Shown here: piece by piece, positions 42,001-61,654 of the stretch
Numbering within the stretch: position 1 is the first letter of the stretch
Layout: the number at the start of each line of letters is the position of its first letter
NCBI RefSeq assembly: GCF_000384395.1
Contig: NZ_ARWE01000001.1
Span: forward strand, 496,001 to 560,000
DNA: 64,000 bases
Source: Geopsychrobacter electrodiphilus DSM 16401
GTDB lineage: Bacteria; Desulfobacterota; Desulfuromonadia; Desulfuromonadales; Geopsychrobacteraceae
Direction of reading: 5' to 3'
Program-made: the position numbers and the translations under genes
Notes under the pieces: generated by a model
The model's input: the letters and a program-made list of their open reading frames with translations, nothing else
Told to the model about the DNA's origin: nothing
Databases searched by the model: none

Positions 42001-45000
42001 AACAGCTACACCAACAGCGGTGGAGATATCAACCACCAGAACGGCGTCGTCAACTTCGCTACCGGGATAGCCGATGCCGGCAGCGGCTTGAACGTTTCCT
42101 GCTCTGCTGCGTGTCACAGCACCGTTACTGGTAAGGCCGCTCTCTGGTCAGATGCTTCTCTGGCCTGTACCGCCTGTCACGGCAACCCGCCGGCCGACGG
42201 TGGTGGAGACAGCCTGGCCCACAGCCGTCATATTGCCGCCGGACTGACCTGTGCTACCTGCCACGTTACAACGCCGGTCGATACCAGCCATATCACCAAT
42301 ACTGCCGGCGCTACCGATCTCGCGGTCCTGCAGAACATGGCCCAGGCTCTTCCCGCTGAGGCTAACGTCGTTGTTTCTACCTGGGACAACGTCAACAACA
42401 CCTGCGCCAATGCGGCCTGTCACAACCCATCCGCTGATACCCATCTGGCCGATTGGGATACCAGCATCTCCAGCTGTACCCTTTGCCATGGTGACAATGC
42501 GGTTTCGCCTGCCACAACCGGAATGGTAAGTGGCAGCCACCGTCAGCATCTGGATAATGCCACCACGTTCGGTAACAACCGGACTTGTACAGATTGTCAT
42601 GCGGATCCCGCCGGGAATACTGCGCATCGCAACGGAACTCTTGAGGTTCTGCCTGGGCTGACTTACAACGGCGAAGTTGCAATTCCGAGTGTGGGTGTCG
42701 GCAACTGCTCGACTTCGCAATGCCATTCCAGCAATAATAAAGGGACCTCACCCTTCTTTACTTACGCGCCTTCACCGACCTGGGGAGATAACACCGCGGC
42801 AGACAAATGTATTCTTTGTCATGCCAAGCCTCCGGTCAATGGTGATCACCAGGCTCACTGGGATGCAACCCGGCAGGCTAACGGAATGACTTGCCAGAGC
42901 TGCCATAACGGCACTGCAACCCCTGGCTTTACCATCGTTACCGGTGGCGGTAGCCACCTCAATGCCATCCCTAATGTCTCCGGATTTAACGATGTTAGCC
43001 CCGGCGGCAGCTACAACGGAACCGCCGTGACCATGACCTACACCATGGGCACGACCGGCCCTTCAAACTGCACGGCAAGTTGTCACAGTGATAAGGTTTC
43101 GCCTCGTGACTGGGCAGTTGCAAGCTCTTGTGATGCCTGTCACTCGAACCTTACAGCTGACCCGACCCATGCCAAGCACATAGATATCGCCGCAGGTATT
43201 CAGGCCGATCGCAGTGAATGTGTGCTTTGCCATGGCGCCCAGGTTAATAGTTATGCCTTGACCGGCGGCGGTGATGTGAAGCACGGCAATGGCACCGTTG
43301 ATTTTGCTGCCGGCATCGCCGACGGTGGAGTCTCACCCAACCAAACCTGTACCGCCGCCTGCCATGGCTCGTCCGCTGCGGACGGGTTCTGGGGTGATAC
43401 GGCGCTGAACTGTACCGCTTGCCATAACAATGGAACCAATGACAATAACATCGCCAATGCCGCACCGTTGACCGGTTCCCATCTCAAGCACGTCACGACT
43501 CAGGGTATGCAGTGCGCCGATTGTCATGGGACGCTTCCGGTTGATACCTCGCATATCAGTGGTTTGAACGCGACTGGAGCCATTTCGGCGACCGATGGTG
43601 CCAAGCTGACGGACAAGGCGACACCGATCGCCGATAACGCTACCGTCAATGACAGCCCCTTCGATAACGTTGGCAACACCTTTGACGATGTCAACAACAC
43701 CTGCTCCAATACCTACTGCCACGATCCTTCCAACGCGGGCAAACTGGTGACCTGGGGCGTCGATACCGCATCCTGTACCCTCTGCCACGGTGATGGTCAG
43801 GGCGCAACCCAGATGGCGACCGGCACCCACGCCAACCATCTGAACGCCACGGCGACCTTTGGTCTTACCATCACCTGTACCAAGTGCCATCCGGACAATA
43901 CCGGGAATAATGGACACTTTATCAAGACCACTGGTCCAACTACGGTTAAACAGGCGGTTCAGTTCGGCGGAACCGTTATCACCGGTGCCCAGACGAGCCC
44001 GGTTGTTAACGGCCTTTATTCCGGCGAGGTCGCGCTTCCCAATACCGCTTACGGAAGTTGCGGAACTACGGCCTGCCATAATAACGGTCAGGGCGGGGCC
44101 CCGAACAACAGCACTTACACCTGGGGTACCACCAATATCCAGAACTGTCTGCTTTGCCACAACAATATGCCGACCACAGGCGGCCATGCGACCCACCTTG
44201 ATGGCAACATCAAGTACGGTCCATTTGCGAAGACTGGTGGCAGCACGAACTGTGGTCTCTGCCACGCTGCTAATGCCAACAACACCAGCATGGCTGGTCA
44301 GCCAACCCATATCAACGGCACCATCTCCTTTACAGGTGCTAAAGAAGTGACCAGCGGAGCAATCAGTGGTAACACCACCGTCACTGCCTGTGACCTCTGT
44401 CACGGTGGTGCGGCTGCGGTTAATCTCGCGGTAACCGGCGCCAAGGCGGTCTGGTCAGCGGGTGGTCCGGTCGCCTGTGAAAGCTGTCATGGTGATTATG
44501 CCCAGGCCAATGTTTCCGGTGCGCTCGCGCCGGTACGCGCCGGGGCAGCTTATGACACTAATGGCCATGGCAAGCCCGGTGTGGCCAAGGCCTGCGTTGA
44601 TTGCCACAACCATGCCGGTGATCACATCGGTTACACGACCAAACGCTTGAACCTGATCAGTGGCAAGGACTTTAACCTGGTCCCGAACGACTTCTGTAAT
44701 GCCTGCCATACCACGCTGACAAACTCGGCGGTGCATAATGCCAATGGCGCCTCCGGGACCAGTAACGATGCGTTGCTCTGCGTCACCTGTCATGACCAGC
44801 ATGGTCAGAATGGTGGACAGGATGCCATGATCGCCTCGACGATTCAGACCCACACGGTCAGCGGCTTCACCTCACGCAGCGCCAGGGCCAGTTATGCCAA
44901 CGCCGGCAATACCGGAGTCTGTCAGGTTTGCCATGATCCCAATGACCCGACGGCAACGGATGGCCTGATCAAGCACTTTAACCGCACTTCGGGCGCTGCC

Positions 45001-47178: not shown

Positions 47179-47228
47179 GGAGCGAGTTTAATGCGCAACT
47201 CGAAACCACCTGGGAAGAACACCGATAA

Positions 47229-47263
47229 CGCTCACTGCAGGGGCAATGCCCCTGCAGTGAGCG
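47229..47263 (+). other. Perfect hairpin between the two giant cytochrome genes
   Basis: CGCTCACTGCAGGGGC pairs with GCCCCTGCAGTGAGCG around an AAT loop, a 16-base perfect stem. No T run follows. It lies in the 216-base leader between the stop at 47178 and the probable start at 47395, so it may set relative expression of the two genes. Confidence 0.7.
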
Positions 47264-47394
47264 GCTACTTCCCGCTAAGGAGAGTCACCATGGGCATGAT
47301 GAAACGACTACGGGAAGTATTTATGATCCAACCTAATCGACAAGAGATTGAACATACTGTGAATATATTGAACCAAAATGAAGTGAGGACGGCT

Positions 47395-50300
47395 ATGAAG
47401 GTTGAAATCCGGAGGAATTCAGGGATGTTCAGATTTGCACACCTGGCCTTGGTGGCCGTTTTTACGCTGATGTTTGGGGTCGCTGGTTTTGCAGGCAATG
47501 CTGAGGCTGCGACGGCCACTTATTATACCTCCGGCGATAGCGGTACTAGCGTCGCAACCGGGGTGACGACCAATTACACGGGCGGTTGTTCGGGTGGGCA
47601 AAATGGGCCGGTCCGCACCCTGATGGCGAAGACAACCAACTACTGCGGGAATTACCAGTATTCCAGTGGTAACGTTGGGTCTACTCTGCTTGAGGCGTAT
47701 AGTGATACGGCATATGCAGCTGCCACTCAGGTTACTGGCGGGACCTATACGATTTACCAATATGGTGGCGGCAGTGGTCCCTGGACCGGGGGTTATCAAC
47801 TTTTCTACATCACCAGCAATGGGACAAAGACCAATTTTTCTGGAGCTCAGGTTACGCAAAGTTTAGATGGTCAGGTGAGCATTAATCTGTCTGGTCAGTC
47901 CGCGGTTGTTCCTGCCGGTGCTAAGCTTGGCATCCGGGTTGTTGCTACCGCAGATAATGGCAGCGCGAATGGACCACTACTTGTCTGGGATCAATTTAAC
48001 GGCAATCAGGGAACATTGACGGTTAATGAAACAGCGGCCTGCTCGGCCACCGCTCCATCCGATCTCGCCGCCAATGCGGTCAGCGGTGGCCAGGTTGATC
48101 TGACCTGGACCTACGACGGCACCAACAACGATTACTACACCGTGTTCCGCGACGGCGTGCAGATCGCGACCAACATCATCAGCGGCAGCTACAGCGACAC
48201 CACGGTCTCGACCAGCACGACCTATAACTACACCGTGCGTGGTTACAGTGTGGCTTCCGCCTGCGAAAGTGGAAATTCGAATACGGCTAACGTCACGACC
48301 CCGGCCTGTACCGAAGCAACGCCTTCCATCGTCTGGACTTCCCAGAACACCGCCTCTGGTGATTTCAGCGGCGCGCCTTTCGTTACTCTGAGCAATGTCC
48401 AAAGTGCAAGCCTGCAGTACAAAGTGACCGAAACCACCGGTGGCGGCCCCGGAACGGTTTCGATTCTCGATGCCTGGCCGAATGCACCGCAGGTTTCGAC
48501 GACGACCTCGACGCCGGCGACAACAAACTTTACGCCGTCAGGTACGAGTGCCGACAACCGAGTGGTGGTCATCTCGGTGGCGGCCTACACCGGTGGCACC
48601 AACACCACGACCATCAGTGTCGACTACGGCAACGGCTCCACCTGGACGCCGGCGCGGCTGATCGGCTACTCGGCGAACAACCAGCGGCGGCAGAATTGGC
48701 TGTTCTACCTGAACGAGGCTGATATCGCCGCATCTTCGGGGAATAGGATTCGTGTTTCCAATAATGTAGCCGGCAACGGATATGCGGCCTGGATCGCCAC
48801 CTACGCCGGAGTCCAACAAAATTCGTCGGGGACTGGTGCTGGCTTCACGATCAACGATTTCTACGGCGAGTACCCCAACCAGGTTTCCAGTACGACCTTT
48901 ACCAATTCCCTGGCGGTCGAAGCGGGGGGCTACGCCCAGTACTTTGACATGAAGAGTGTCAACGCCGAGACCACTGACAACGAAAACTATTCGAGTAATA
49001 CCGTCCAGAACATCGGTGGCGCCTATGCCGACACCCACTGGAAGGCTTTTGCCACGGCGGGGACCACCCAGCCGACCTTGTCGTGGGGTGGTTCTAATGC
49101 CTACATGGGCTACGCAGGATTCACCCTGAATCCGGCGTCCAGCGGCCCGGTGGAGACCACGGTGATCAACTGGACCGCCGACCCTATCCCCGGCATGGCG
49201 AATCTGACCGATGGTAACACCTACAACCTCTATGCCCAAGGTCTGAGCGGCACCTGCGGCGTTTCTGTCTACGGCGACAGCGTATCTCAGCTTGTTGCGG
49301 ACGGTACCCCGACAACTTTTGGTTGGACCTCCTGCGTTGAAACCCTTACCCTGACAGCGCCCAGCATCACCGGCCCAATCACCGGACCGGTGGTCGTGAC
49401 CGCGGGTGGCACTGCCACCGGCAAGCAGGTCAGCTGGAGTGAAAACGGAGGCAGCACCTGGAGTGCCTGGGCTGCCAGCGGGGCGACCTATACGCCTACA
49501 AGCTGTACCATTGGCAACGTTATCTTCAGGGCTCAGGCCAGTGGCACCTGCGCAGTCATGACCGCCCAGTCTGCCGCCGTCGCGTTTGATACCTCGGATG
49601 CTGATCTCGCGACCCTGACCACCACCAACCCGATCACCGCCAATTCGACGGTCGTCATTCAGACCGCTGTCGGTGTAGAAACTGTTCCGGCCGGGATGAC
49701 CGGCATGGCTGTTACTATTGCCGGCGCTGGAACCTGCAACGTCACCGGTGCGGCGATGAGCTGGAATGCTGGCTCCTCCCGCTGGGAATATAACTGGAAC
49801 ACCAGCGCCTGCGGCACAGTCACTGCGGTCACCGGCGTCAGCATCGCCGTCTCCGGGACTGACCCCGATTGCGGTAACGCGGTATCGGCACCTCTGGTCA
49901 GCGGTGTCACTATTGATAACACCTGCGTTGATGCTACTCCGTCAACTATCACTGTCCCGGCCAGCCAGTCTGTTTCCGGGGCCAGTGTCAATCTGGCATC
50001 GCTGTTCTCCAGCACCGGCAACGTCGGCAGTTTCACTTTCACCATCAACGGCTCGCCGGTGACCAGCCCCTGGAACAGCAGCGCCTTCGGCACCACTGGT
50101 CCCCAGGCGGTAACTCTGGGCGTGACCGGTACCGATCCCGACTGCGGTGGCAGCGTCGTTGGTCCGAGCACCAACAGCATCACCGTTAATAACGCCACCC
50201 CGACCGTCATCAGTTCGGCGACCGCCTCGAGTGGTGACGCTAAAATCACCGTCGCCGTCGCCTACAGCGGTGATACGAACACCAACAATAACGTTCAGGT

Positions 50301-53300
50301 CGAATATGGCGCTTGCGCCGGGACCTGCGATGGGACCACCTTTGGGACCAACCTGGGATTGCTCGGCCACCAGATCAGCCCCTACCTGCAGAACATCAGC
50401 GGGCTGACAAATATGCAGAAATACCAGGTGCGCGTCACCATCAGCGATGCAGACGGAGTATCACCCCAGACCGTTTATACTTTCATCGACGTGATCCCGT
50501 CTAACCCGATGCTGCATAACGCGGCCTCTACCGGCTCTACCAAGTGGGGCGGCAACTGGGGTCTGCCAGGCGGCAAGTACGGCGAGTTCACCTGTCAGAC
50601 CTGTCATACCGACACCACGACCAACATCAAACGGATTAAGACCAGCATCTCTTTCCCTGACAGCAGCCTGATGCCCAACGGCCTGCCCTCCAGCCCGGTC
50701 ACCCTTACCGACACCCGGGATCTCACCAGCGATTACGCTGCCGCTGCCGGTAACCATGCCACCAGTAACGGCGTCTGTGAGGTCTGTCATAGCCTGGATG
50801 AAACCAAGGTAAACGGGGTCCAGCATCACGCCTATAATATGAGCACTGCGACCGCGACCAACCAGAACCACTTTTTGCAGAAAGATTGCATGACCTGTCA
50901 TAATCACAAGTCCGGCTTTTTGCCGACCGCTTGTGACGCCTGCCACGGCAACCCGCCGATAGCCAACAATACCGATGGCAGCACCAATACCGGTTTGGTT
51001 CACACCTCTGTAACCGGCAGTACCACCCCCGGTGCGCACAACCTGCACGCTGTAACCAAGGGCTTCACCTGTGACACCTGTCACAATGGTTATGTCATGC
51101 CTAACGGCGGTGACATCAACATCAGCTTCAACGCTTTCGGCACCACTACTGGAACCTACACCGGCCAGGATGGTGTCAGTTATAACGGGACCGTCGTCGC
51201 GGCCGGCAATGGCACCAAGACCTGCTCCGCCGTTTACTGTCATGGCGGCACCATCGGCGGCGGTACTCCCCCGATCTGGGACGGCACTGTTGCTTGTGGC
51301 GATTGCCATGGCGCCAGCAGCACCACTCCGCCGATCGGCGGCAGCCATGCGACCCACGCCGGGACCCTGGCATTGGCATGTACTCAGTGTCATGGTGCCA
51401 CCGCCGGTGCAGCCGGTCATATGAACGGCAATGTTTCCTGGGATGTCAGCGCTTTGCCGACCCAGGTTGCTGGAACCGTCACTTACAAGACCACCGCTAC
51501 CGGCAGCACCGGGGCCATTGCTCCCAGCGCCACCTACGGCAGCTGCGCCAACGTCAAGTGCCATTTCGGCAACACCCCGACCTGGGGCGGCGCTCTGCCC
51601 AACGGCTGCGCCAGCTGTCATAACAATGGCCTCGGCGAACCTTGGCCGGCCACCGGGGCACACAACGCCCACTTCACTGCCCTCGGCGTCTCATTGGCCA
51701 CCCAGGTGACCAACGGTCCCGTTGTACAGGCCAAGTGCGACTATTGCCACAGTGGCAATATCCACTCCAACGGCACAGTTGAAGTCAACGTCTCCGCCAC
51801 CTATCAGGACAAGTCCGGCGGTGCCAGGACATATGCCGGCAGCCAGTGCAGCAATATCAGCTGTCACGGCGGCCAGATCACCCCGGCCTGGACCGGGACC
51901 ATCGATGCAAATACCCAGTGTACCCAATGCCACAAGGCAGAGAACGTTGGGACCGAATACAACAGCGCAACCACCGGTATGCACGGCATTACCGGGGTTG
52001 TCAGCGGTGAGAACCACGGCAGCGCGCTCGCCTGCACCGCCTGTCATAACGGCCAACCGGCCAACCATTTCAGCGATGCCGGTTTAGCGACCAGTGCCAT
52101 GAACCGTCCGGCGGGAACCGACTTTGTCGCCGGGGTGACTCTGGGGGCCAATTCGGATCTGGATACCTGCGCCATGGCCTGTCACAAGGAAGGGGCGACG
52201 GCTCCGCGTAGCGGCAGTGCTCCCTGGGCACGATTGAATAACAAAACCTTCGCCTCCGGCGGCGGCGCAGCGGGTGACGAGTGCAAGACCTGTCACGGCA
52301 CCTGGGGTAACTGGCGCGGCAACATGCTGGTCGATCATACCAAAGACTGGGATACCGACGGCACCGCCGAAGTCCAAGCCAACCACGCCGAATGTGAGAC
52401 CTGTCACGGCTTCGCGCCGACCAAGACCAACGCAGCCTACAATGCGACCTGGGGCACCGGAAATCATGGCGACGGCATAATCACCATGAACGGTCCGACG
52501 CCGAATACCGGCGCCGGCTACAACCAGGCTAACTGGGGCTGCGACAACGCTTGCCACGGTAACGCCAGCACCCTGCACAACCTGTCTGATTCGAAATGGA
52601 ACGTCGGTTTCGGCGACTTCGGCGCGGGCAGTTGCGACAGCTGTCACTCCGCCGGCGGCAGCGGTCCGACCGTGGTCTATCCCACAGGGAATTCCGGCTG
52701 GGCCGGAGAAACCTACGGGGCCCACCTTAAGGCGACGACCGGTGATGTGCTCTCTAATACCACCGACTGGGCGACCCAGTGTCAGAAGTGCCACGGCTTC
52801 CACAGTGGCAAGCTGGTTTCCCCGAACATCATCGCCAACAATGCCACCGTTGGCATCAACTACACCGTGCATGGTGGTATCAATCTCGGCGGTACTGCGA
52901 CCACCGCAACCACCGAAGCGGAAACCTGCTGGGGCTGTCATGACAGCCAGACCCCAAAGATTTCCGAATGGCAGACTAACACCGACACCAACGGAGCCGA
53001 GCCTAACTATGATTTCGGTGGGTTGTGGACCACTGCTGCTGCCACCACGGCACGATCCAACTGGGTCGGCGCTTACTGGAAATCAGCCACCGCGATCTTT
53101 GGTTACAAGACAGGCCTGATTCAGTCGACCCATGCGGCCTCCACCAATACAGGCGCCGCCTCCGGACTCGACACTGTGGCCTCCATCCGCTGCAGCTACT
53201 GCCATGACGTCCATAACACCTACGGACCCAACGGCAAACCGTACCTGCGTGGCACCTGGATGGGTTCACCCTATCCGGAAGATGGCGCCCCGCAAAGTAC

Positions 53301-54084
53301 TTCCACTTATACCAGTAGTACCAGCTACCGGTTCGGCGCAGTGCCGAGGGGGAACAGTGGCACCCCGCCGCGGGCCACTGGCGGTTATTTCATCGATCAG
53401 AACCGGACGGCTACATCGACCGCCACAAGTCATCTGAACGCCACCACCTGGTCACTCACCAACAACGCCGGGCTCTGCACCATGTGCCACGGCACTGATG
53501 TGAATAATCTTAACCAGTACGGCACCGCAGCGACTGACTGGGTCGGAACCGGCGGCAACGGGCATAGCAACGCGGTAATCGGTGGGACGGGGACACACGC
53601 CTCCAATATCTTTGATTTGCGCGGCGGTGTTCGCGGTAACAATGCCAACCCGGCAATGGCTTGGCAGGGTGCTTCTGACCCGGGTGACAGCGGTAGCTAC
53701 GGCTTTCGTAATGGTCAGTCGAATTCGGACAACTGGGCGCCGTTACTTAACGGAGCTCCTGGGCAAATCAGACGTTACAGTAACTACAGTTGGGGGGCGT
53801 CGGTGAGTGCGACGACGATTGACAACCAGTATCACCAGTTCCCTTGTTCCAAGTGTCACAACCCGCATGCCTCGCGGCTGCCGCGCTTGATGATCACCAA
53901 CTGTCTGGACACCAAGCACAATACCTGGGATGACGCCGGTGGGGTCAGGACAACCGGTAACTATGGCAGTAATAACAGCAACCGGCACAAGTCTAATCTG
54001 ACCTCTGCTCAGAACTGTCACCGGTTGGGTGACCCAGCAGAAAGCGGCACTGGCGCCGGCTGGAACAAGGTGACACCTTGGTAA
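47395..54084 (+). CDS. Chimeric beta-sandwich / multiheme cytochrome c
   Basis: A 2229-residue secreted protein. The ATG at 47395 has GAGGA five bases upstream and gives a signal peptide (FAHLALVAVFTLMFGVAGFA); a longer version from 47191 would be leaderless. Residues ~45-1060 lack heme motifs and are Thr/Gly/Asn-rich, with a fibronectin-III domain around 220-310 (VDLTWTYDGTNNDYYTVFRD) and further Ig-like modules with paired cysteines (GTDPDCGNAV, GTDPDCGGSV). From ~1066 onward there are 19 CXXCH, 3 CX4CH and 2 CX3CH motifs by my count. The C-terminus has degenerate heme-like remnants (CLDTKH, QNCHRLG). Likely surface-exposed, perhaps a mineral- or cell-binding cytochrome. Confidence 0.88.
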   Translation: MKVEIRRNSGMFRFAHLALVAVFTLMFGVAGFAGNAEAATATYYTSGDSGTSVATGVTTNYTGGCSGGQNGPVRTLMAKTTNYCGNYQYSSGNVGSTLLEAYSDTAYAAATQVTGGTYTIYQYGGGSGPWTGGYQLFYITSNGTKTNFSGAQVTQSLDGQVSINLSGQSAVVPAGAKLGIRVVATADNGSANGPLLVWDQFNGNQGTLTVNETAACSATAPSDLAANAVSGGQVDLTWTYDGTNNDYYTVFRDGVQIATNIISGSYSDTTVSTSTTYNYTVRGYSVASACESGNSNTANVTTPACTEATPSIVWTSQNTASGDFSGAPFVTLSNVQSASLQYKVTETTGGGPGTVSILDAWPNAPQVSTTTSTPATTNFTPSGTSADNRVVVISVAAYTGGTNTTTISVDYGNGSTWTPARLIGYSANNQRRQNWLFYLNEADIAASSGNRIRVSNNVAGNGYAAWIATYAGVQQNSSGTGAGFTINDFYGEYPNQVSSTTFTNSLAVEAGGYAQYFDMKSVNAETTDNENYSSNTVQNIGGAYADTHWKAFATAGTTQPTLSWGGSNAYMGYAGFTLNPASSGPVETTVINWTADPIPGMANLTDGNTYNLYAQGLSGTCGVSVYGDSVSQLVADGTPTTFGWTSCVETLTLTAPSITGPITGPVVVTAGGTATGKQVSWSENGGSTWSAWAASGATYTPTSCTIGNVIFRAQASGTCAVMTAQSAAVAFDTSDADLATLTTTNPITANSTVVIQTAVGVETVPAGMTGMAVTIAGAGTCNVTGAAMSWNAGSSRWEYNWNTSACGTVTAVTGVSIAVSGTDPDCGNAVSAPLVSGVTIDNTCVDATPSTITVPASQSVSGASVNLASLFSSTGNVGSFTFTINGSPVTSPWNSSAFGTTGPQAVTLGVTGTDPDCGGSVVGPSTNSITVNNATPTVISSATASSGDAKITVAVAYSGDTNTNNNVQVEYGACAGTCDGTTFGTNLGLLGHQISPYLQNISGLTNMQKYQVRVTISDADGVSPQTVYTFIDVIPSNPMLHNAASTGSTKWGGNWGLPGGKYGEFTCQTCHTDTTTNIKRIKTSISFPDSSLMPNGLPSSPVTLTDTRDLTSDYAAAAGNHATSNGVCEVCHSLDETKVNGVQHHAYNMSTATATNQNHFLQKDCMTCHNHKSGFLPTACDACHGNPPIANNTDGSTNTGLVHTSVTGSTTPGAHNLHAVTKGFTCDTCHNGYVMPNGGDINISFNAFGTTTGTYTGQDGVSYNGTVVAAGNGTKTCSAVYCHGGTIGGGTPPIWDGTVACGDCHGASSTTPPIGGSHATHAGTLALACTQCHGATAGAAGHMNGNVSWDVSALPTQVAGTVTYKTTATGSTGAIAPSATYGSCANVKCHFGNTPTWGGALPNGCASCHNNGLGEPWPATGAHNAHFTALGVSLATQVTNGPVVQAKCDYCHSGNIHSNGTVEVNVSATYQDKSGGARTYAGSQCSNISCHGGQITPAWTGTIDANTQCTQCHKAENVGTEYNSATTGMHGITGVVSGENHGSALACTACHNGQPANHFSDAGLATSAMNRPAGTDFVAGVTLGANSDLDTCAMACHKEGATAPRSGSAPWARLNNKTFASGGGAAGDECKTCHGTWGNWRGNMLVDHTKDWDTDGTAEVQANHAECETCHGFAPTKTNAAYNATWGTGNHGDGIITMNGPTPNTGAGYNQANWGCDNACHGNASTLHNLSDSKWNVGFGDFGAGSCDSCHSAGGSGPTVVYPTGNSGWAGETYGAHLKATTGDVLSNTTDWATQCQKCHGFHSGKLVSPNIIANNATVGINYTVHGGINLGGTATTATTEAETCWGCHDSQTPKISEWQTNTDTNGAEPNYDFGGLWTTAAATTARSNWVGAYWKSATAIFGYKTGLIQSTHAASTNTGAASGLDTVASIRCSYCHDVHNTYGPNGKPYLRGTWMGSPYPEDGAPQSTSTYTSSTSYRFGAVPRGNSGTPPRATGGYFIDQNRTATSTATSHLNATTWSLTNNAGLCTMCHGTDVNNLNQYGTAATDWVGTGGNGHSNAVIGGTGTHASNIFDLRGGVRGNNANPAMAWQGASDPGDSGSYGFRNGQSNSDNWAPLLNGAPGQIRRYSNYSWGASVSATTIDNQYHQFPCSKCHNPHASRLPRLMITNCLDTKHNTWDDAGGVRTTGNYGSNNSNRHKSNLTSAQNCHRLGDPAESGTGAGWNKVTPW

Positions 54085-54216: not shown

Positions 54217-54868
54217 GTTATGCGCAGGTACTCTTCAGTCGTGGTGGTTGAAGGGTGACTTGGCGGTTATAATCCTCTGCCGACCCTGATGGCGGTTGCG
54301 ATTATAGCGGCATGGGAGTCCATCGCCGGGTCGAATATGAAGTGAGCTGCTGGCTAAATTCTGGCAGGACGAACAGAACTCACAAAAGTGCCAGTCTCCT
54401 CGGGCGAGGATAAAGATATTCTGAGCCAAATAGCCATTCAAGAGGATAGGTCGTTGATCTGACCTGTGTATGGCAGGAACACCTTATGAACCCGACGAGA
54501 TTTGTCGGTCCTCCTTATGTCGGAAAGGTTTAACGTTGCGTTGATGGTTGACTGAAGTCAGCACTTGGTAGCAGGGCTACCTGGCACAGCTAAGGGTCAA
54601 AGGCGAAGCGTTGAACAGGAGCCGAAGTTTCGATAACCACAGGTGTTGCTGTAGATCGGACTGGAATGTCCGGCGTTAGGGTAAAGGGTAGCGTAATTCC
54701 CTGCCCTGGAGCGGAAATAAGTCTAATGGCTGTACCTGAGGCTTATCAACGGCACCTCCAAGGGAACGGTTCTACATGGTGTATCCAATACCGATAATCA
54801 CCCGCAGGACCTTCGAAATGCAGGCTATGTGGCGGTAACAGTGATGCCTGTTATAAGGTCTGCGGTGT
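54217..54868. other. Gene-free region with many hairpins, possible structured RNA
   Basis: About 650 bases with no convincing gene on either strand. Several short stems are exact: CCGAC/GTCGG (54492-54508), GGTAGC/GCTACC (54567-54581), CGGAC/GTCCG (54657-54672), ATAAGTC/GGCTTAT (54717-54746), and a long one closed by CCGATAA/TTATCGG (54791-54879) that runs into the end of the next gene. GNRA-like GCGAAGC and GCCGAAG loops occur. The style recalls domain I of group II introns or another large ribozyme-like RNA, but I cannot find domain V and do not recognise a family. It could also be a decayed mobile element. Confidence 0.4.
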
Positions 54869-56293
54869 CTATTTATCGGGTAAAAGGGTGTCGTCGACCA
54901 TCTGCTTCGGCACTTTAACCTCAGGCGCTGGCACATGTTTGGCTGAGAGAATTTTTTGGTTTTTCTGTGCTTCATCGCTTAGAGACTGAAAAAATGCGGG
55001 CATGTCGGGATAATAGATGGGCGACCAGACGAGCTTTTTCAGACGAGCGAGGATTTGAATGGTCTCTTCCGGTTTGCCGTAGGTGGACAGAATTTCAGCT
55101 CTTTTTATGTCGATGAATGGATTTTCAGGAAAGAGAGCCGCCGCTTTGTCCAGCATCTGCAGGGCGGCATCCGGACGTTTAGCCTTTAGCGCGACCTGCA
55201 CCAGATCAAGGTAAGCCTGGCCGTATGCAGGATCAAGCGCCGCAGCAGCGGCCAGAGATTTCAAAGATTGGTTGCCTTGTTTAAGTTCGCGCTCACTCTG
55301 GAAGAGGGCATACTTGATCGAAGGATCATCTGGCGCTTCGGTCTGCATTTTTAGGTATTTTGCCTGAATCTCTTCGTTTTTGAAAAAATTCGCCAGATAA
55401 AGGGCTTCGGCCCGCTGTTTCCAGTCAGTGGGGATGGGCTTGGCAAGTCGCTCTGGAACTGCGAACAGCTGTTGAAGGTCAGGTGCCAGAAATCTGGTAT
55501 CGAGTGGCATGCCTCCGACCAGATTGGAACTTGAGATGGTCAGGGCCAGGGTTGGCCAGCCGGGCCCTTGAAGTTTTGAGAGAATCTGAAAAATAAGCGG
55601 ATAAAGGGGCGTGCCAATTTCATGGCGATAGAGTGGCGCGAAAAAGCTGAGGTCGATGTGCAGCAGGATCGGGCCACTTAATTTCGGCAATTGGCCAAGA
55701 GTAATTGTTCGAAAGGGGTGCCCATACAGCGTTCCGACAATGGCATCAGCCGTCTGCTTCAAGGTTTCAGTTTCTTTGGCGGTCATGATTCTCTGGTCGA
55801 CCAGCTGTTTTTTAAAGGTGGCGAAATCGATCTTTTCCTGTGTGCCTTGAATGGGGAGTACCCAGATGACTTCTGACACCAGATCTGCCTGCAAGGCTGC
55901 TGTGACGGCTATTTGGGGGAAGAATAAGGGGTTGGCGTGTGGTCGCGAGGCTTTTTCTCTAATTTCCAGGGCAGATCCATGTAGCACCAATGTATTGGTC
56001 TGATCCTTTAGCTCAGGCGGTAATTTGGTCAGGAACGGGTTGTTGCTTAAGACCACCAGGGTTGGTCTGGAGTCTCGATACTTGCGCCAGGTCGGGATTG
56101 CTTCCGACGGGGTTTCAACCAGCACAGCATTGAGCGGATCTTTCAACAGAATGACAGGTTTGTGCGGGACATCAGGCAGAGACTGTGCTTGAATTGGTGG
56201 GACCTGGGTAACCTCGGGTAGCTTGTCCTTCTGTTGTTCACAGCCAAACAGCAGCAGGGCACAAAGGGGTAACAGTAAATATCTGAGCATCAA
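54869..56293 (-). CDS. Lipoprotein with degenerate UPF0489-like domain and TPRs
   Basis: A 474-residue exported lipoprotein: signal MMLRYLLLPLCALLLFGCEQ with lipobox LFGC. Residues ~50-290 hold a domain whose order (LVETPSEAIPTWRKYRDSRP; LVSEVIWVLPIQ; GPILLHIDLSFF) resembles the UPF0489/ureohydrolase-like fold, but the metal-binding HxD motif is replaced (VVLSNNPFLTK), so arginase-type activity is unlikely. Residues ~300-430 are TPRs (AAAALDPAYGQAYLDLVQVA). It is a paralogue of the protein at 56732-58066, and an 18-codon peptide gene lies between them. The UPF0489 relation is my inference. Confidence 0.75.
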   Translation of the reverse strand: MMLRYLLLPLCALLLFGCEQQKDKLPEVTQVPPIQAQSLPDVPHKPVILLKDPLNAVLVETPSEAIPTWRKYRDSRPTLVVLSNNPFLTKLPPELKDQTNTLVLHGSALEIREKASRPHANPLFFPQIAVTAALQADLVSEVIWVLPIQGTQEKIDFATFKKQLVDQRIMTAKETETLKQTADAIVGTLYGHPFRTITLGQLPKLSGPILLHIDLSFFAPLYRHEIGTPLYPLIFQILSKLQGPGWPTLALTISSSNLVGGMPLDTRFLAPDLQQLFAVPERLAKPIPTDWKQRAEALYLANFFKNEEIQAKYLKMQTEAPDDPSIKYALFQSERELKQGNQSLKSLAAAAALDPAYGQAYLDLVQVALKAKRPDAALQMLDKAAALFPENPFIDIKRAEILSTYGKPEETIQILARLKKLVWSPIYYPDMPAFFQSLSDEAQKNQKILSAKHVPAPEVKVPKQMVDDTLLPDK

Positions 56294-56435
56294 TGAACTC
56301 CTGGTTAAGATTTCAGCTGCGCATTATAGGCGGGTTCGTCCCGGGGGTAAAGGTGTAGCCGGATCTGATCGGAGTCTGGGGCTAAAATTATTGCGGCTGA
56401 GGAGAACCTGCCAGTGGGGCGTAGCCAGGATAACT

Positions 56436-56451
56436 CTGGTTTGTATTTTGC
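56436..56451 (+). promoter_or_regulatory. Candidate sigma-54 promoter upstream of the peptide gene
   Basis: TGGTTTGTATTTTGCA has the GG and GC doublets ten bases apart and a perfect TTGCA -12 part; the -24 part matches less well. It would start a leader of about 125 bases before the peptide ATG. Confidence 0.35.
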
Positions 56452-56587
56452 AAGAACATCACTGTTGTCAGGATTTTTTGGCAAGGAGTAGAAATCTGCC
56501 GCCAAAAGAAGTAAAGTTTCAGCCAGTATTCCGTTTTATAGCCGATTGATAACGGTAGCCCCAATAACCGCAAAACAGGAGGAAGTT

Positions 56588-56644
56588 ATGAAAAAGTACA
56601 TGAAGCCTAAAGTCGTGGGTAGCAGCAACGTTCACCCCTGCTAA
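56588..56644 (+). CDS. 18-residue peptide, candidate modified-peptide precursor
   Basis: AGGAGG (56577-56582) lies five bases before an ATG that opens an 18-codon frame, MKKYMKPKVVGSSNVHPC, followed by TAA and then a perfect terminator. The strong ribosome site, the tight spacing to the terminator and the ending in a Cys after GSSNVHP argue that the peptide is made. The look (basic start, KPxVxGSSNxHPC end) recalls very short candidate precursor peptides annotated in Geobacter-type genomes, from memory. No radical SAM or other maturase is visible nearby. It lies between two paralogous exported TPR proteins encoded on the other strand. Confidence 0.65.
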   Translation: MKKYMKPKVVGSSNVHPC

Positions 56645-56666
56645 GGCAAAAAAGAACAGCAGCAAA

Positions 56667-56704
56667 CGAAAAAGAAGGTCGGGTTTTCCCGACCTTCTTT
56701 TTCG
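56667..56704 (+). terminator. Terminator of the peptide gene (bidirectional)
   Basis: CGAAAAAGAAGGTCGGG and CCCGACCTTCTTTTTCG form a perfect 17-base stem with a TTTT loop; A and T runs in the stem make it usable from both sides, so it can also end the gene at 56732-58066. Confidence 0.93.
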
Positions 56705-56731
56705 TTCAGCATGAAACGTCAGGCGTTACTC

Positions 56732-58066
56732 TTACTTAGCCGAACTGTTTGTCGCTGATTCTGTCAGGCTGGCCGCTTTTTGCCGCAGATGGTTGGCCAT
56801 CTCAGGATAATACACTGCTGACCAGGTGCGTTTCGCCAGGTCCGTGTAGATCTTCATGGCTTCGGCCGGACGTTTTAATTTCAGCAACAACTCGGCTTTC
56901 TGTAAGGGGATCAGGGGGTCTTGCGGAATGGCGGCCATCGCTTTGTCGAGCAAGGTCAGGGTTTGTTTGTCCCACTTATTTTTAAGTCCGGTTTCCGCCA
57001 GCGCCAGATATTCTTCAGCGTACCCTGGGTCCAGCTTGACGACTTTGTCGAGCTGGGCAAAAGCGGCCTGGTTCTTCCCGGATTGAATCAACAACTGATA
57101 AAGATCATACTGAACCGTTGGATCCTCGGGGGCGCTGTCGGCATTCTTTTGAATCAGCTCTTTGGCATTCTTCTCCTGAAAAAAATTCTGACTGAACATT
57201 GCATTTTTGCGGTTTATCCAGCTTTCGGGCATTTTGCCATCAAGCAGTGCTGGCTGTTTCAGCAGTCGGGCCAGATCTGAGATGAGAAACCGGGTGGCGA
57301 GGGCATAGTTACCACCCTCGTTGGAGTAGGAGAGGGTCACCGCCAGACACTGCCATTCGGAATCGCGCAAGAGCTGAACGGTCTCTTGCAGCAGGTCGTA
57401 GACAGGCGTGCTGATCTCGTTTTTGAACAGGCCCCGGAAATAACCGAGATCTACATGCAGGATGACCGGATGTTTAATCGCCGGTAGTGCCGCGAGGGGA
57501 TGCATAATCCGCAAGGGGGTATGCCTGACCTCCCCGACAAGAATTCCTTCATCGACCAGATGAAGTTTTTCAGCTTCAGCAGAGGTTAAAAATCCGGCCT
57601 TGGACATCAGTTTACGAAAATTCTCCGCCTTGAAATCTGCCAGCTTCCCCTGGGCGGGGAAATACCAGACGACCTCAGAGAACAGGTGCTGGTCCAGGGC
57701 CGCGGTCAGGGTTTGACTGGGGAGCAGAAGGGGTTCGGCTCGTTGCAGGCTGTCGTGCAGCCTGAACTCAGCGGCACTCCCCTGGTTGATGAGTTTGGCG
57801 ACACTTTGATGGAGTTCTGGCGGAATGGGTTCTAAAAAAGGGTGTTCGGAAAAGAGCACCAGCGCCGGTTTCTCCTGTTGATATGAACGCCAGATCTGCG
57901 GTGCCTGAGAGGGGAGCTCAAGGCGCACAGGGTCTATGCTCTGCCGCATCACCTGAGATGTCGGATGCGATCCGAGGGGCGCAACATGTCCCGGGCTGTT
58001 AGTGGCCGCCTGGGATGGACTGCCAGCGAGCAGGGCTGCCAGCAACATAAGAACCACAATCGGCAT
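56732..58066 (-). CDS. Exported TPR protein with degenerate UPF0489-like domain
   Basis: A 444-residue paralogue of 54869-56293. The signal peptide is IVVLMLLAALLAGSPSQAAT, without a lipobox. The same order is seen: LELPSQAPQIWRSYQQEKPA, LVLFSEHPFLEPIPPEL, SEVVWYFPAQ and HPVILHVDLGYF, then TPRs from ~285 (AAFAQLDKVVKLDPGYAEEY; LTLLDKAMAAIPQDPLIPLQ). Both paralogues end in a shared RTWSAVYYPEM/LVWSPIYYPDM block. It is periplasmic or outer-membrane facing. The shared domain and the peptide gene between them suggest a common function, not yet known. Confidence 0.75.
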   Translation of the reverse strand: MPIVVLMLLAALLAGSPSQAATNSPGHVAPLGSHPTSQVMRQSIDPVRLELPSQAPQIWRSYQQEKPALVLFSEHPFLEPIPPELHQSVAKLINQGSAAEFRLHDSLQRAEPLLLPSQTLTAALDQHLFSEVVWYFPAQGKLADFKAENFRKLMSKAGFLTSAEAEKLHLVDEGILVGEVRHTPLRIMHPLAALPAIKHPVILHVDLGYFRGLFKNEISTPVYDLLQETVQLLRDSEWQCLAVTLSYSNEGGNYALATRFLISDLARLLKQPALLDGKMPESWINRKNAMFSQNFFQEKNAKELIQKNADSAPEDPTVQYDLYQLLIQSGKNQAAFAQLDKVVKLDPGYAEEYLALAETGLKNKWDKQTLTLLDKAMAAIPQDPLIPLQKAELLLKLKRPAEAMKIYTDLAKRTWSAVYYPEMANHLRQKAASLTESATNSSAK

Positions 58067-58252: not shown

Positions 58253-59287
58253 ATGCTAAAAAAATTTGGATTTTGCTGTTTGGGGATTTTGTTGTCGGCA
58301 AGCCTGGCCCAGGCGGGGCTGATTCCAGTCGCGGGAAAGGTAGCGGTTTCTGGGGAAGGCATTGCCGGGGTAGTTGTCTCTGCCTGGCCATTGGCGACGG
58401 TCAGTTTTGGTGATACTCCACCCTTCCAGTCGGCGCCATCCGATAAGGCCGGCATGTTTCAGCTGGAACTGCCATCGGGGGAGTACTATTTTCTGGCGCA
58501 GAATGATCAGTATTTCGGGTTTTATGGACGGAATCCGGTCAATGTGGCCGGCAAAGGCGTTGACGATCTGCGGATTGCGCTCCCCCTGCGCAATCCCCCC
58601 AGGGCCGAAAAACCAGCGGATTCCCTGCCGGGGGTCGTGGTCAAAACCACCACCGAAGGAAAGCCTGTTGCGGGGGTGGTGCTGATGGTTTATCCCGATT
58701 TGAATAGCCAGTTGAAGGGGATGGGCTTCGGCATGAGTCTGCCGAGTGATGCTGACGGGGTGACTGAGCTTTCTCTGGGGAGCGGAACCTATTATATCGT
58801 AGCGCGTAAGCGGCAGAGTGGCGGGATGACCGGCCCATTGAGTGCCGGCGATTATTTTGGTTACTATGCCGGGAATCCGGTGACGATCAAGGATACGCAG
58901 GTTTTGAGTCTCGGTATCGACCTGGTTGAGGTGCCACAGAAGGTTAAGCAGCAGGCAGATCACCTGTTCGGCACAACGAGCATCCGCGGGCGCGTTCAAA
59001 ATGCCGTGGGTACACCGGTCGCCGGGGTGAGGGTGCTGCTCTATCCCGACGCGACCATGTTGAATCGACCGCTCTATGTGTCGCAGCCCTCGACATCCAA
59101 GGGCGAATATGTGTTGAGCTTCCCCAAGGGCGGGACGTACTTTCTGGCCGCGCGCAACAAACTGGGCGGCGCACCGGCGCCGGGTGAGCTCTATGGCCGT
59201 TACACCGGAAGTCAGGACAGCTCCATCCGGATCAGGAATGGGCAGGCGCTGGAGGGGATCAATCTGCTGGTTGAGGAGATGTGGTAA
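58253..59287 (+). CDS. Secreted protein with three carboxypeptidase-regulatory-like repeats
   Basis: A 344-residue exported protein. The signal peptide is GFCCLGILLSASLAQAG. Three beta-sandwich units follow at about residues 24-115, 122-235 and 242-342. Each starts with a G.V...G.P.AGV.V..YP pattern and ends with an aromatic block: GEYYFLAQNDQYFGFYGRNP, GTYYIVARK plus GDYFGYYAGNPV, and GTYFLAARNKLGG plus ELYGRYTGSQ. These look like CnaB / carboxypeptidase-regulatory domains. No catalytic residues are seen. The repeats may bind sugar or other surface ligands. Confidence 0.8.
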   Translation: MLKKFGFCCLGILLSASLAQAGLIPVAGKVAVSGEGIAGVVVSAWPLATVSFGDTPPFQSAPSDKAGMFQLELPSGEYYFLAQNDQYFGFYGRNPVNVAGKGVDDLRIALPLRNPPRAEKPADSLPGVVVKTTTEGKPVAGVVLMVYPDLNSQLKGMGFGMSLPSDADGVTELSLGSGTYYIVARKRQSGGMTGPLSAGDYFGYYAGNPVTIKDTQVLSLGIDLVEVPQKVKQQADHLFGTTSIRGRVQNAVGTPVAGVRVLLYPDATMLNRPLYVSQPSTSKGEYVLSFPKGGTYFLAARNKLGGAPAPGELYGRYTGSQDSSIRIRNGQALEGINLLVEEMW

Positions 59288-59395: not shown

Positions 59396-60175
59396 TTAGT
59401 GCGCGGCCTCTTTGATACTGATGTCATCAATCGTGACCGTATTCCGGTCGGGTTTGCCCTCACGGAAGAAAATCAAGTGGATCATGGCGGTCTTGGGGCC
59501 GGTGGTGAAGCTGAAGGTCTGGAGCTGTTTTTCGACCTTGCCCTTGAGGCGGACACCTACCTGGGCGCCGACCTGTGACTCTTTAATCAGTGATTCGGGA
59601 TACTGTTCCCCAACCCACAGAAATTTGTTGAATTCAAGGATGCCGATCCCGGCAGTTGCCCCGGCGGTCAGGTCGCAGCTGAAGGTGGTGCGGATTTCAT
59701 AGCGGGTGGTCGGTTGAACGGCGATCGGGGAGAAAAAACCGACGGAGTCAATTCCTTTGATCCCTCTAAACCCGAACGAAATATTGCCGTCGGTCGCTCC
59801 TTTAGCTTTGGTTGGCCCGGATGTCCTGAGCAGGTGCTCGATAAAGGTTCGCCAGTATTGCATCCCCTCGGTGTCATTGTCTTCAGGACGATAGGCACCG
59901 GTTCGGGGAAAGAGAGAGAGCTGTGGGGCGCCCTGGAAATTTTCAAAGAGGGGTGGTCGCGGCGGGTCCTGCTGCTTGCTGTCGGTGTTTTTAACCTCTG
60001 GCGTGAGCTTTGTGGTTTCCTGCGTCGTTGCCCGGGTGGGTGGTTCGTCCGTTTTGGCCGGCACTGCTTGCGCTGCGGGGGGAGAAATGGTTTTCGTCGC
60101 CGGGAGATCGTCATTGTTTTGTGATTGGCAGGCGACAAGACTCAGCAGAAAAAGCAGGGCGACGAGGGGTTTCAT
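59396..60175 (-). CDS. Putative lipoprotein of unknown function
   Basis: A 259-residue lipoprotein. The ATG at 60175 with GGAGAA upstream gives the signal KPLVALLFLLSLVACQSQ with lipobox LVAC. A Pro/Thr/Lys-rich linker (about 20-80) leads into a C-terminal domain (about 95-259) that looks like a beta-sandwich: GFRGIKGIDSVGFFSPIAVQ; PTTRYEIRTTFSCDLTAGAT; MIHLIFFREGKPDRNTVTID; ending DISIKEAAH. This resembles carbohydrate-binding-module-like jelly rolls. No enzyme motif. Confidence 0.68.
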   Translation of the reverse strand: MKPLVALLFLLSLVACQSQNNDDLPATKTISPPAAQAVPAKTDEPPTRATTQETTKLTPEVKNTDSKQQDPPRPPLFENFQGAPQLSLFPRTGAYRPEDNDTEGMQYWRTFIEHLLRTSGPTKAKGATDGNISFGFRGIKGIDSVGFFSPIAVQPTTRYEIRTTFSCDLTAGATAGIGILEFNKFLWVGEQYPESLIKESQVGAQVGVRLKGKVEKQLQTFSFTTGPKTAMIHLIFFREGKPDRNTVTIDDISIKEAAH

Positions 60176-60454
60176 GGTCGTTCTCCATTGGGGAATGGTC
60201 TTTGCGAGGTGCGTTGTTCGGTTCGGCATTGTAGGGTTTTTCCGCCAGTCATACCAGTAAAAATACGGTTCGCGGGTCCTTAAGAGGGTGACCAGCGGCT
60301 ATTCTTCTGCTAGATTTACGCGTTTAATTTCGGTTTGGATCCCAGGCTTAACCGTTCGACGGTGTTGGCGGATTCAGGAATACAGGGACTAAAGATTTCG
60401 TTTACCGGCGGTGAATACGTCGGAACAAGCGAAAAATAAATAAGGCGGTTTATT
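60176..60454. other. Divergent intergenic region
   Basis: About 280 bases between the lipoprotein and ResB-like genes. It should hold both promoters. A CTGCTAGATTT stretch at 60309-60319 could be an extended -10 for the rightward gene. Nothing else is clear. Confidence 0.35.
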
Positions 60455-61654
60455 GTGATTTTTTGGCGTTTTTTCAGCTCTGTCAAATTGACGATTTCCC
60501 TGCTTTTGGGGATGGCGGTGGTGGCGATCCCGGCGACGGTGATAAAGCCCGAGATGGGGCGCTATGAAGTTTTTTATCAGACCGCCTGGTTTCGTTCCCT
60601 CCTGTTTTTACTGGCCCTGAATCTGCTGGTCTGTACCATCCGCACCATCAATCGTAATCTGCGTGACCGCCCACGTTTTTATGCGCAGCTGGCGCAATTA
60701 CCCGAATCGGCGCTTCGGTTGCAGACATCATCAATCGATCCGCTTCTGGTCGCTTTGACCTCCCTCGGTTTTCGGGGTGAACAGATCGGCAACCGGATCT
60801 GGGGCCGGCGTGGTCGTGCCGGACGCTGGGGCTCAACCCTGGTTCATTGCAGCCTGCTGGCGATCATGTTCGGTGCCATTCTTGGGCAGAGGGGGTTTGT
60901 CGGAACGATTAACACCTATCTTCATGACGAGAACCGTAGCTACTTTGACTGGAATCTTCAGAAGGAGAAGCCCCTCGGTTTTACTTTGCGCGTCGATCGT
61001 TTCGCCCTCGAGTATTATCCCATAACTCTCCGTTTTGACCTGGTTGACGCGGACAAAGGGACGAAGCTCGGCACCTTTACCCTGCTTGAAGGTGAGTCGA
61101 TTGATCTGGCCGATAGAAAGCTGCGGGTCCAGGCCAGGCATTTCAATCCCGATGAAAAAATTCTGACCCTGGGGATTTTTCGGAACGGCAATTTTGTCGG
61201 GGATTATCTGGTGTTTCCAGGTGATGAACGATTTGGTGATTTGAAAAACCCCGGGGTTGAAGCCAGAAATGTGCAGTTTCGCGATCCGATTCTGAAACAG
61301 ATGGAGAGCGATATGACCATCCTTGAAAAGGGCAAGGTGGTCAAGCAGGGAACAATCCGTGTCAATGAGCCCCTGACCTGGCGAGGGGTTTCAATTTATC
61401 AGACCGCTTACTCACGTGATAAATCGGGGAACTGGGCCACCGGGTTTCAGCTGTCGAAAGATCCGGGTGAGATGATTGTCTGGATTGCATCGGTATTACT
61501 GCTTCTGGGTTTGGCTGCGGCGTTCATCATTCCGTATCGCGCTGTAGGTATTCGCCGTTATGAGGATGACTTTTATCTGCTGCCGCTGCATGGCTTTCGC
61601 GGCGAACTGGGGCAGGAACAGCTGGCCGAAATTGCGCGTCGGCTCGATGCGTAG
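60455..61654 (+). CDS. ResB-like cytochrome c biogenesis protein
   Basis: A 399-residue inner-membrane protein. The GTG at 60455 is the likely start (IFWRFFSSVKLTISLLLG). Helices are at about 9-28, 48-64, 128-146 and 350-370. The long loop between helices 3 and 4 (about 150-345) is periplasmic. The ends SSVKLTISLLLGMAVVAI, RWGSTLVHCSLLAIMFG and LTWRGVSIYQTAY match the ResB/Ccs1 family, which works with CcsA/ResC to attach heme to cytochromes c (System II). No CcsA is adjacent in the window. The number of cytochromes nearby makes a role in their maturation plausible. Confidence 0.85.
   Translation: MIFWRFFSSVKLTISLLLGMAVVAIPATVIKPEMGRYEVFYQTAWFRSLLFLLALNLLVCTIRTINRNLRDRPRFYAQLAQLPESALRLQTSSIDPLLVALTSLGFRGEQIGNRIWGRRGRAGRWGSTLVHCSLLAIMFGAILGQRGFVGTINTYLHDENRSYFDWNLQKEKPLGFTLRVDRFALEYYPITLRFDLVDADKGTKLGTFTLLEGESIDLADRKLRVQARHFNPDEKILTLGIFRNGNFVGDYLVFPGDERFGDLKNPGVEARNVQFRDPILKQMESDMTILEKGKVVKQGTIRVNEPLTWRGVSIYQTAYSRDKSGNWATGFQLSKDPGEMIVWIASVLLLLGLAAAFIIPYRAVGIRRYEDDFYLLPLHGFRGELGQEQLAEIARRLDA

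Follow-up and report, generated by a model that had tools for sequence, protein, structure and literature searches.

Systems of the pyrroloquinoline quinone (PQQ) and mycofactocin type combine PqqD/E proteins and a radical S-adenosylmethionine (SAM)/SPASM enzyme with a short precursor peptide. The GeoRSP enzymes are described in NCBIfam by three models: TIGR04302 (PqqD), TIGR04303 (radical SAM/SPASM, GeoRSP_rSAM), and TIGR04304 (SPASM). Here, we report a gene for an 18-amino-acid peptide that is very probably the precursor on which these enzymes act, found in a window of 64,000 nucleotides from Geopsychrobacter electrodiphilus DSM 16401 (contig NZ_ARWE01000001.1, positions 496,001 to 560,000; positions below are those of the window). 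The copy in the window is very probably an unlinked satellite of that precursor, and it stands between two exported proteins with a domain resembling the peptide arginase OspR and with tetratricopeptide repeats (TPRs). Two other described systems bear on the comparison: passages of PMC10368454 describe YxxPxL as a conserved leader motif of lasso peptides and RiPP recognition element (RRE) domains as PqqD homologues, where RiPP stands for ribosomally synthesized and post-translationally modified peptide, and passages of PMC10028609 give the Mn ligands of OspR as His12, Asp39, His41, Asp43, Asp165, and Asp167. The peptide gene and its signals are as follows.

56577..56582, + strand: Shine-Dalgarno sequence AGGAGG, read directly, 5 nt 5' of the peptide ATG
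56588..56644, + strand: 18-amino-acid peptide MKKYMKPKVVGSSNVHPC, satellite copy of the proposed GeoRSP precursor
56665..56706, + strand: intrinsic terminator with a 19-bp perfect stem and the loop UUUU, from a fold computation

The peptide and the GeoRSP enzymes

We assign the peptide to GeoRSP on the basis of co-occurrence, of peptide sites within GeoRSP loci, and of a Y-x-x-P-x-[VI] motif. Among 194 genomes from the class to which G. electrodiphilus belongs, TIGR04303 scored above its cut-off in 57, and four with contig-edge fragments were counted as present, making 61 GeoRSP-positive genomes. A strict pattern found the peptide in 50 of these 61 but in only 1 of the 133 GeoRSP-negative genomes (p = 2.5e-34, Fisher's test, which ignores kinship). 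A search of the GeoRSP loci in the 11 genomes missed by the strict pattern detected no peptide there; a relaxed pattern, applied to these 11, to 28 of the 132 genomes free of both GeoRSP and peptide, and to the exceptional genome G185, located it elsewhere in the genome in 9 of the 11 and in none of the 28, with clean reversed controls. Strict and relaxed patterns combined place the peptide in 59 of 61 GeoRSP-positive versus 1 of 133 GeoRSP-negative class genomes. The two also vary together within a single genus (g32, family f12), where four genomes (G067, G088, G112, and G153) have both and one (G090) has neither. Among 20 further peptide genomes, mostly Nitrospirota, TIGR04303 exceeded its cut-off in 15, and in three more the match is split or falls just short (G216, 397.6 bits; G209 and G214, two fragments each); this set counts the genome of locus L214, described below, and its member G217 is apparently G035, with the same contig number and coordinates.

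At 27 of the 194 non-redundant peptide sites that we collected in Desulfuromonadota and Nitrospirota, the peptide lies inside the GeoRSP locus, typically between the radical SAM and SPASM genes. The genome of G. electrodiphilus (G000, a single contig of 4.24 Mb) has three peptide copies (C1:552618, 855235, and 1779450), and the third (L022) sits between the TIGR04303 and TIGR04304 genes, 3' of the PqqD gene; the TIGR04303 protein there (L022/G000:C1:1778375-1779346) scores 456 bits against a cut-off of 400. In both phyla, the genes shared around GeoRSP encode a YedE-type transporter (TIGR04112), an NrfG-like TPR protein, a PhnD-like binding protein, and ResB-like, beta-helix, and CarboxypepD_reg proteins; OpuAC-like proteins, an ArsP_1 permease, and a cupin were also seen in the GeoRSP surroundings at L312-L322 in the two phyla.

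The N-terminal half of the peptide carries the motif Y(-15)..P(-12).[VI](-10), with Tyr in 192, Pro in 194, and Val or Ile in 194 of the 194 sites, where Pro was part of most search patterns and Val or Ile was also favored by them, while Tyr was asked for by no pattern. An RRE-type leader motif is thus present in the precursor, with hydrophobic Val or Ile in place of Leu, and lasso PqqD models also pick up the PqqD protein of GeoRSP. As is expected of a RiPP precursor, the peptide is short, conserved, and tied genetically to a modifying enzyme.

The earlier note on this window, which was made from its sequence alone, had proposed a search for peptides with a similar ending beside homologues of the two flanking proteins, and the family is indeed widespread: a DNA pattern for GSSNVHPC and a stop codon gave 35 matches across 15 of the genomes of 41 relatives, while the reversed control pattern gave none. 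A wider exact pattern matched at least 118 stretches in a collection of 84,980 species; among the matches listed, 21 of 80 carry Nitrospirae, Nitrospiraceae, or Thermodesulfovibrionia titles and the others are mostly from Desulfuromonadota. Cultivated carriers of the peptide found in this way are Pelotalea chapellei DSM 13688 (L166), Geotalea toluenoxydans JCM 15764 (L236), and Geomobilimonas luticola JCM 17780 (L231). The 194 sites come from all the sequences retrieved, L214 included, and in all of them the C-terminal V-H-P-C, the Gly at -8, and the Pro at -12 are invariant, an invariance partly forced by the search patterns. Across 78 distinct 18-codon copies, wobble positions reach an entropy of up to about 2 bits and codon positions 1 and 2 show little or none, which shows selection on the peptide itself. 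Terminator-like hairpins follow within 160 nt at 132 of 193 sites (15 of 193 after shuffling) and behind 22 of the 27 in-locus copies, and would fit a precursor produced in excess. Scans of the peptide against NCBIfam and Pfam families gave no match, a weak negative because queries of 20 residues rarely pass the filters. A variant at L313 1827, MKRKKYVSPRIVANAVVHPC, has lost the conserved Gly, and so the family is wider than the search patterns. Nitrospirota arrays (L160, L207, L223, L227, and L230) also hold a variant, GSVCVHPC, with an extra Cys; the variants of the family comprise SSN, SAN, SAD, and SVC types. The contig of L214 is titled Phycisphaerae; its neighboring genes match those of the Desulfuromonadales locus L218 and its genome is without GeoRSP, for which reasons we regard it as a probable binning error.

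The peptide gene of the window is as the earlier note described it, with a strong ribosome site and a perfect terminator (-34 kcal/mol, z -6.7, equalled by none of 200 shuffled sequences). A simple promoter scan of the + strand 5' of the gene detected no sigma-70-type site. Both neighboring genes are on the - strand, and the peptide copy probably stands alone: a 108-aa frame upstream on the same strand, through which alone this copy was sorted as having an 'other same-strand gene', is probably spurious. The possibility that an HPC-TGA ending encodes selenocysteine was ruled out, as the stop is TAA or TAG in 33 of the 78 distinct 18-codon copies and TAA in the window.

Satellite copies and surface proteins

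The remaining peptide sites are satellites dispersed through the genome, of which 151 could be judged (the 194 sites minus the 27 in-locus copies and 16 with less than 600 nt upstream). Of these, 58 lie 17-220 nt (median about 60) 3' of a same-strand gene with five or more CxxCH motifs, six more lie behind cytochrome-like genes that are cut by a contig end or have fewer motifs, and 29 lack any same-strand gene within 250 nt; loci that resemble one another in related genomes enter these counts separately, and there is no formal null. Other upstream partners, by Pfam, are FG-GAP/UnbV, FN3, Ig, LamG, and CarboxypepD_reg proteins, with an HD-domain protein at L218, and in Nitrospirota genes for CarboxypepD_reg-type exported proteins alternate with peptides (L160, L207, L223, L227, and L230). 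The typical neighbors of the peptide are therefore giant multihaem cytochromes and other surface proteins, a point absent from the earlier note. The satellite context may be a lead towards the assembly or function of surface cytochromes, and together with the GeoRSP association it suggests a chemically modified peptide, its modification predicted, with a surface role in metal-respiring bacteria.

The genome of G. electrodiphilus encodes about five giant cytochromes of TIGR01904, and one of its peptide copies (L021) lies 27 nt 3' of a giant multihaem gene. The window copy is 2.5 kb 3' of such a gene, and the surroundings include the following.

47191..54084, + strand: giant CxxxxCH/CxxCH multihaem cytochrome of 2297 aa with 19 CxxCH motifs and a C-terminal WNKVTPW
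58253..59287, + strand: exported CarboxypepD_reg protein, directly 3' of the corresponding peptide copy in related genomes
60455..61654, + strand: ResB-like cytochrome c biogenesis protein, from a Pfam scan

At loci orthologous to 47191-54084, a first peptide copy stands directly 3' of the cytochrome gene; this copy is absent from the window. ResB-like genes occur beside several GeoRSP loci, as also in the window locus. Directly 5' of the 2297-aa gene lies another giant CxxxxCH/CxxCH cytochrome frame (about 40500-47200, + strand; about 2712 aa). The non-coding gap 3' of the 2297-aa gene contains a match to the Rfam family group-II-D1D4-3 (54319-54485, + strand, 35.9 bits, cut-off 32); no other Rfam family matches this stretch, which is single-copy in the genome.

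The flanking exported proteins

Three - strand genes around the peptide encode exported proteins or lipoproteins.

54869..56293, - strand: copy a, exported lipoprotein-like protein with an OspR-like pseudo-arginase domain and TPRs (domain by homology to the modelled paralogue)
56732..58066, - strand: copy b, exported protein with an OspR-like pseudo-arginase domain and TPRs (AlphaFold2 model and sequence)
59396..60229, - strand: lipoprotein with a carbohydrate-binding-module-like jelly roll (low-confidence model, without Pfam family)

Copies a and b are paralogues of shared architecture, as the earlier note had recognized: they are 33% identical and both have C-terminal TPRs. Copy a has a listed TTG start, with an ATG at 56290 the likelier one, and a lipobox-like LLLFGC; copy b has an ATG start and a signal-peptide-like N-terminus. 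The note had also described a UPF0489-like domain with its metal site lost, and the predicted structure and a sequence alignment bear this out. The AlphaFold2 model of copy b (pLDDT 84, pTM 0.83, from 8 sequences) has OspR (8brp) as its best solved match by VIA-align over residues 43-274 (Z 15.4, rmsd, the root-mean-square deviation, 3.1, 189 aligned, 20% identity); agmatinases follow at Z of about 10.4 among TPR rows of up to 12.2, and Foldseek alone puts TPR proteins in the top rows. Comparison with the UPF0489 family model (PF12640) gave a divided answer: the window proteins have no match at E values up to 1, while two relatives with D-x-H-x-D match weakly (E 0.016 and 0.044; 16.0 and 14.6 bits, below the 27-bit cut-off). 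About two of the six Mn ligands are kept in copy b and about one of six in copy a, as mapped from a sequence alignment and not a structural one; D-x-H-x-D and D-x-D are intact in L120 and L135, and two positions hardly vary across the family alignment, a Glu in the region of the first motif and the leading Asp of D-x-D. Because most metal ligands are lost, the flanking proteins are probably catalytically inactive and may have a binding role. Sequence searches of the PDB returned only TPR, other repeat, or designed proteins for the pseudo-arginase, among the best 60 of 266 rows, and nothing for the N-domain of L135.

At an E value of at most 1e-15 for membership, the pseudo-arginase family occurs in 40 of the 194 class genomes: 38 of the 61 with GeoRSP versus 2 of the 133 without it. 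Among GeoRSP-positive genomes it is present in 33 of 37 from the order of the window and in 5 of 24 from the rest of the class. A peptide lies within 5 kb of 25 of 60 pseudo-arginase genes; of 115 peptide sites, 24 have a pseudo-arginase gene within the same distance. The link between peptide and flanking family is therefore real, as had been claimed, and what changes is the defining partner: this role falls to the GeoRSP radical SAM system, encoded elsewhere in the genome. The family is a common accessory rather than an obligatory part: 23 of the 61 GeoRSP-positive genomes do without it, and 35 of the 60 genes are not within 5 kb of a peptide. The sandwich of a peptide between two copies, which had been read as the make-up of the system, is a local arrangement, as related loci have one pseudo-arginase copy or none. 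In relatives, a different cytochrome-peptide locus (L028 and L032) carries family members that share 58-59% identity with copy b, against only 33% between copies b and a, and the matching locus in G. electrodiphilus, L021, has no pseudo-arginase gene; copy b has thus apparently been relocated beside copy a, which would explain the sandwich.

The model of 59396-60229 has a pLDDT of 62, and Foldseek pairs its beta domain with CBM16/CBM4 modules (E 2e-6). This family is fused to the pseudo-arginase in G001 (L300), a fusion that looks real, and adjoins it in L302 and L303. Two other pseudo-arginase fusions (G050, 946 aa, and G037, 938 aa) were discarded as evidence because the added part looks like GC-rich read-through.

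Proposed pathway and comparison with known systems

We consider it likely that the peptide is made ribosomally as a GeoRSP radical SAM/SPASM precursor and serves at the envelope, with the pseudo-arginases handling the product. Going by the motif and the co-occurrence, the PqqD-like protein (TIGR04302) would bind the MKKYxxPx[VI][VI] half as a leader, and the TIGR04303 enzyme together with the SPASM protein (TIGR04304) would modify the C-terminal half around V-H-P-C. The product would then exit the cytoplasm and serve at the envelope with the surface proteins encoded 5' of the satellites, either as a bound part or as an assembly aid, with copies a and b, the exported OspR-like pseudo-arginase/TPR pair, as its proposed periplasmic binders or handlers. 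Several observations weigh against this pathway. One genome without GeoRSP, G185 (79% complete), has a peptide; two GeoRSP-positive genomes (G060 and G165) have no peptide even with the looser pattern, the lone match in G165 not being a peptide; and of the 20 further peptide genomes, G206 and G213 have no TIGR04303 match, the former counting as an exception. The peptide usually lies outside the GeoRSP gene group in Nitrospirota and in Geobacteraceae-like genomes. In G. electrodiphilus itself, the PqqD protein adjoining the radical SAM gene reaches 95.2 bits with TIGR04302, its top model match, against a cut-off of 100, and the protein 3' of the peptide reaches 82.1 bits with TIGR04304, also its top match, against a cut-off of 300, a cut-off attained by 9 of 58 class genomes. 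No system-specific exporter or leader peptidase was identified, and the gaps in the distribution of the pseudo-arginases described above count on the same side.

Other explanations account for parts of these data. A short open reading frame with a strong Shine-Dalgarno sequence and a terminator-like hairpin behind it could be a leader peptide or attenuator, whose translation controls transcription downstream, and at 65 of the 83 C and D sites the gene that follows has the same orientation. Yet in the window both neighbors are on the opposite strand, as is the next gene at 21 of the 51 B sites, and peptide copies tend to close operons rather than open them; with amino acids fixed and wobble positions free irrespective of the downstream gene, and with a near-perfect GeoRSP association that would be unexpected for an attenuator, we regard this explanation as very improbable. 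Equally improbable is the self-contained system of the earlier note, in which the flanking pair and the peptide would form an arginase-like system acting on the peptide: copy b is modelled with the OspR fold, and two relatives with an intact D-x-H-x-D stand beside Arg-containing peptides, but the window peptide has no Arg, the metal motifs of the window copies are lost by comparison with the ligands given in passages of PMC10028609, and neither the family, absent from those 23 GeoRSP-positive genomes, nor the two-copy sandwich is conserved. An unlikely alternative, although a better one than these two, is that the GeoRSP product is a secreted signal or sensory peptide that reports the expression of surface cytochromes, with the OspR-like/TPR proteins as its receptor. 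Such a role would suit the small size and conservation of the peptide, the location of satellites beside surface genes, and the exported proteins with TPRs and a peptide-enzyme fold within 5 kb of those 24 peptide sites; against it, a near-single core in all copies across two phyla differs from typical species-specific signals, and the layouts seen show no constant neighbor that is a receptor kinase or regulator.

If the peptide is a GeoRSP precursor, the GeoRSP enzymes gain a probable substrate, and in two phyla a RiPP-like pathway is connected with proteins of extracellular electron transfer. For multihaem cytochrome assembly and long-range surface electron transfer, this would mean that a small and apparently overlooked gene travels with the proteins involved. 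More tentatively, and with some doubt, we suggest that in metal-respiring bacteria a peptide made by radical SAM chemistry could be a standard part of the extracellular machinery: every giant cytochrome or other surface protein would bring its own copy of a universal precursor, a single GeoRSP set would mature them all, and the product would be a structural, redox, or assembly component handled by exported pseudo-peptide-arginases. A RiPP-type precursor would then be dispersed genome-wide as many satellites of one maturase, accompanied by exported proteins that are related to a RiPP enzyme fold and probably have no catalytic activity.

A full-text literature search found no paper on the GeoRSP enzymes or the peptide, whereas for UPF0489 and peptide arginases it led to the OspR papers; NCBIfam curators' notes may name a target peptide. 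The searchable literature appears to contain no description of the peptide, of its dispersal, or of its surface partners. The earlier statement that no system of this kind had been described was too strong, as the enzymes carry NCBIfam names. Among known systems, the peptide arginases and UPF0489 proteins (OspR, 8brp) share the predicted fold of residues 43-274 of copy b, whereas the window proteins are exported, fused to TPRs, mostly without the metal ligands, and below the reach of the Pfam UPF0489 model. With lasso peptides the system shares the Y-x-x-P-x-[VI] spacing and a PqqD-like partner, but here no lasso cyclase or B2 protease was identified, radical SAM chemistry is predicted, and the core has about 8 residues. 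A PqqD-like partner and a radical SAM/SPASM enzyme are also common to the PQQ and mycofactocin systems, and the TIGR04303 protein scores with mycofactocin and PqqE models as well; what differs is the C-terminal V-H-P-C and the presence of several unlinked precursor copies per genome behind surface proteins. Compared with GeoRSP as named in NCBIfam, where the models found cover enzymes only and dispersed copies behind surface-protein genes do not figure in the names, the enzyme set is identical, and the peptide lies within the GeoRSP locus or tracks it.

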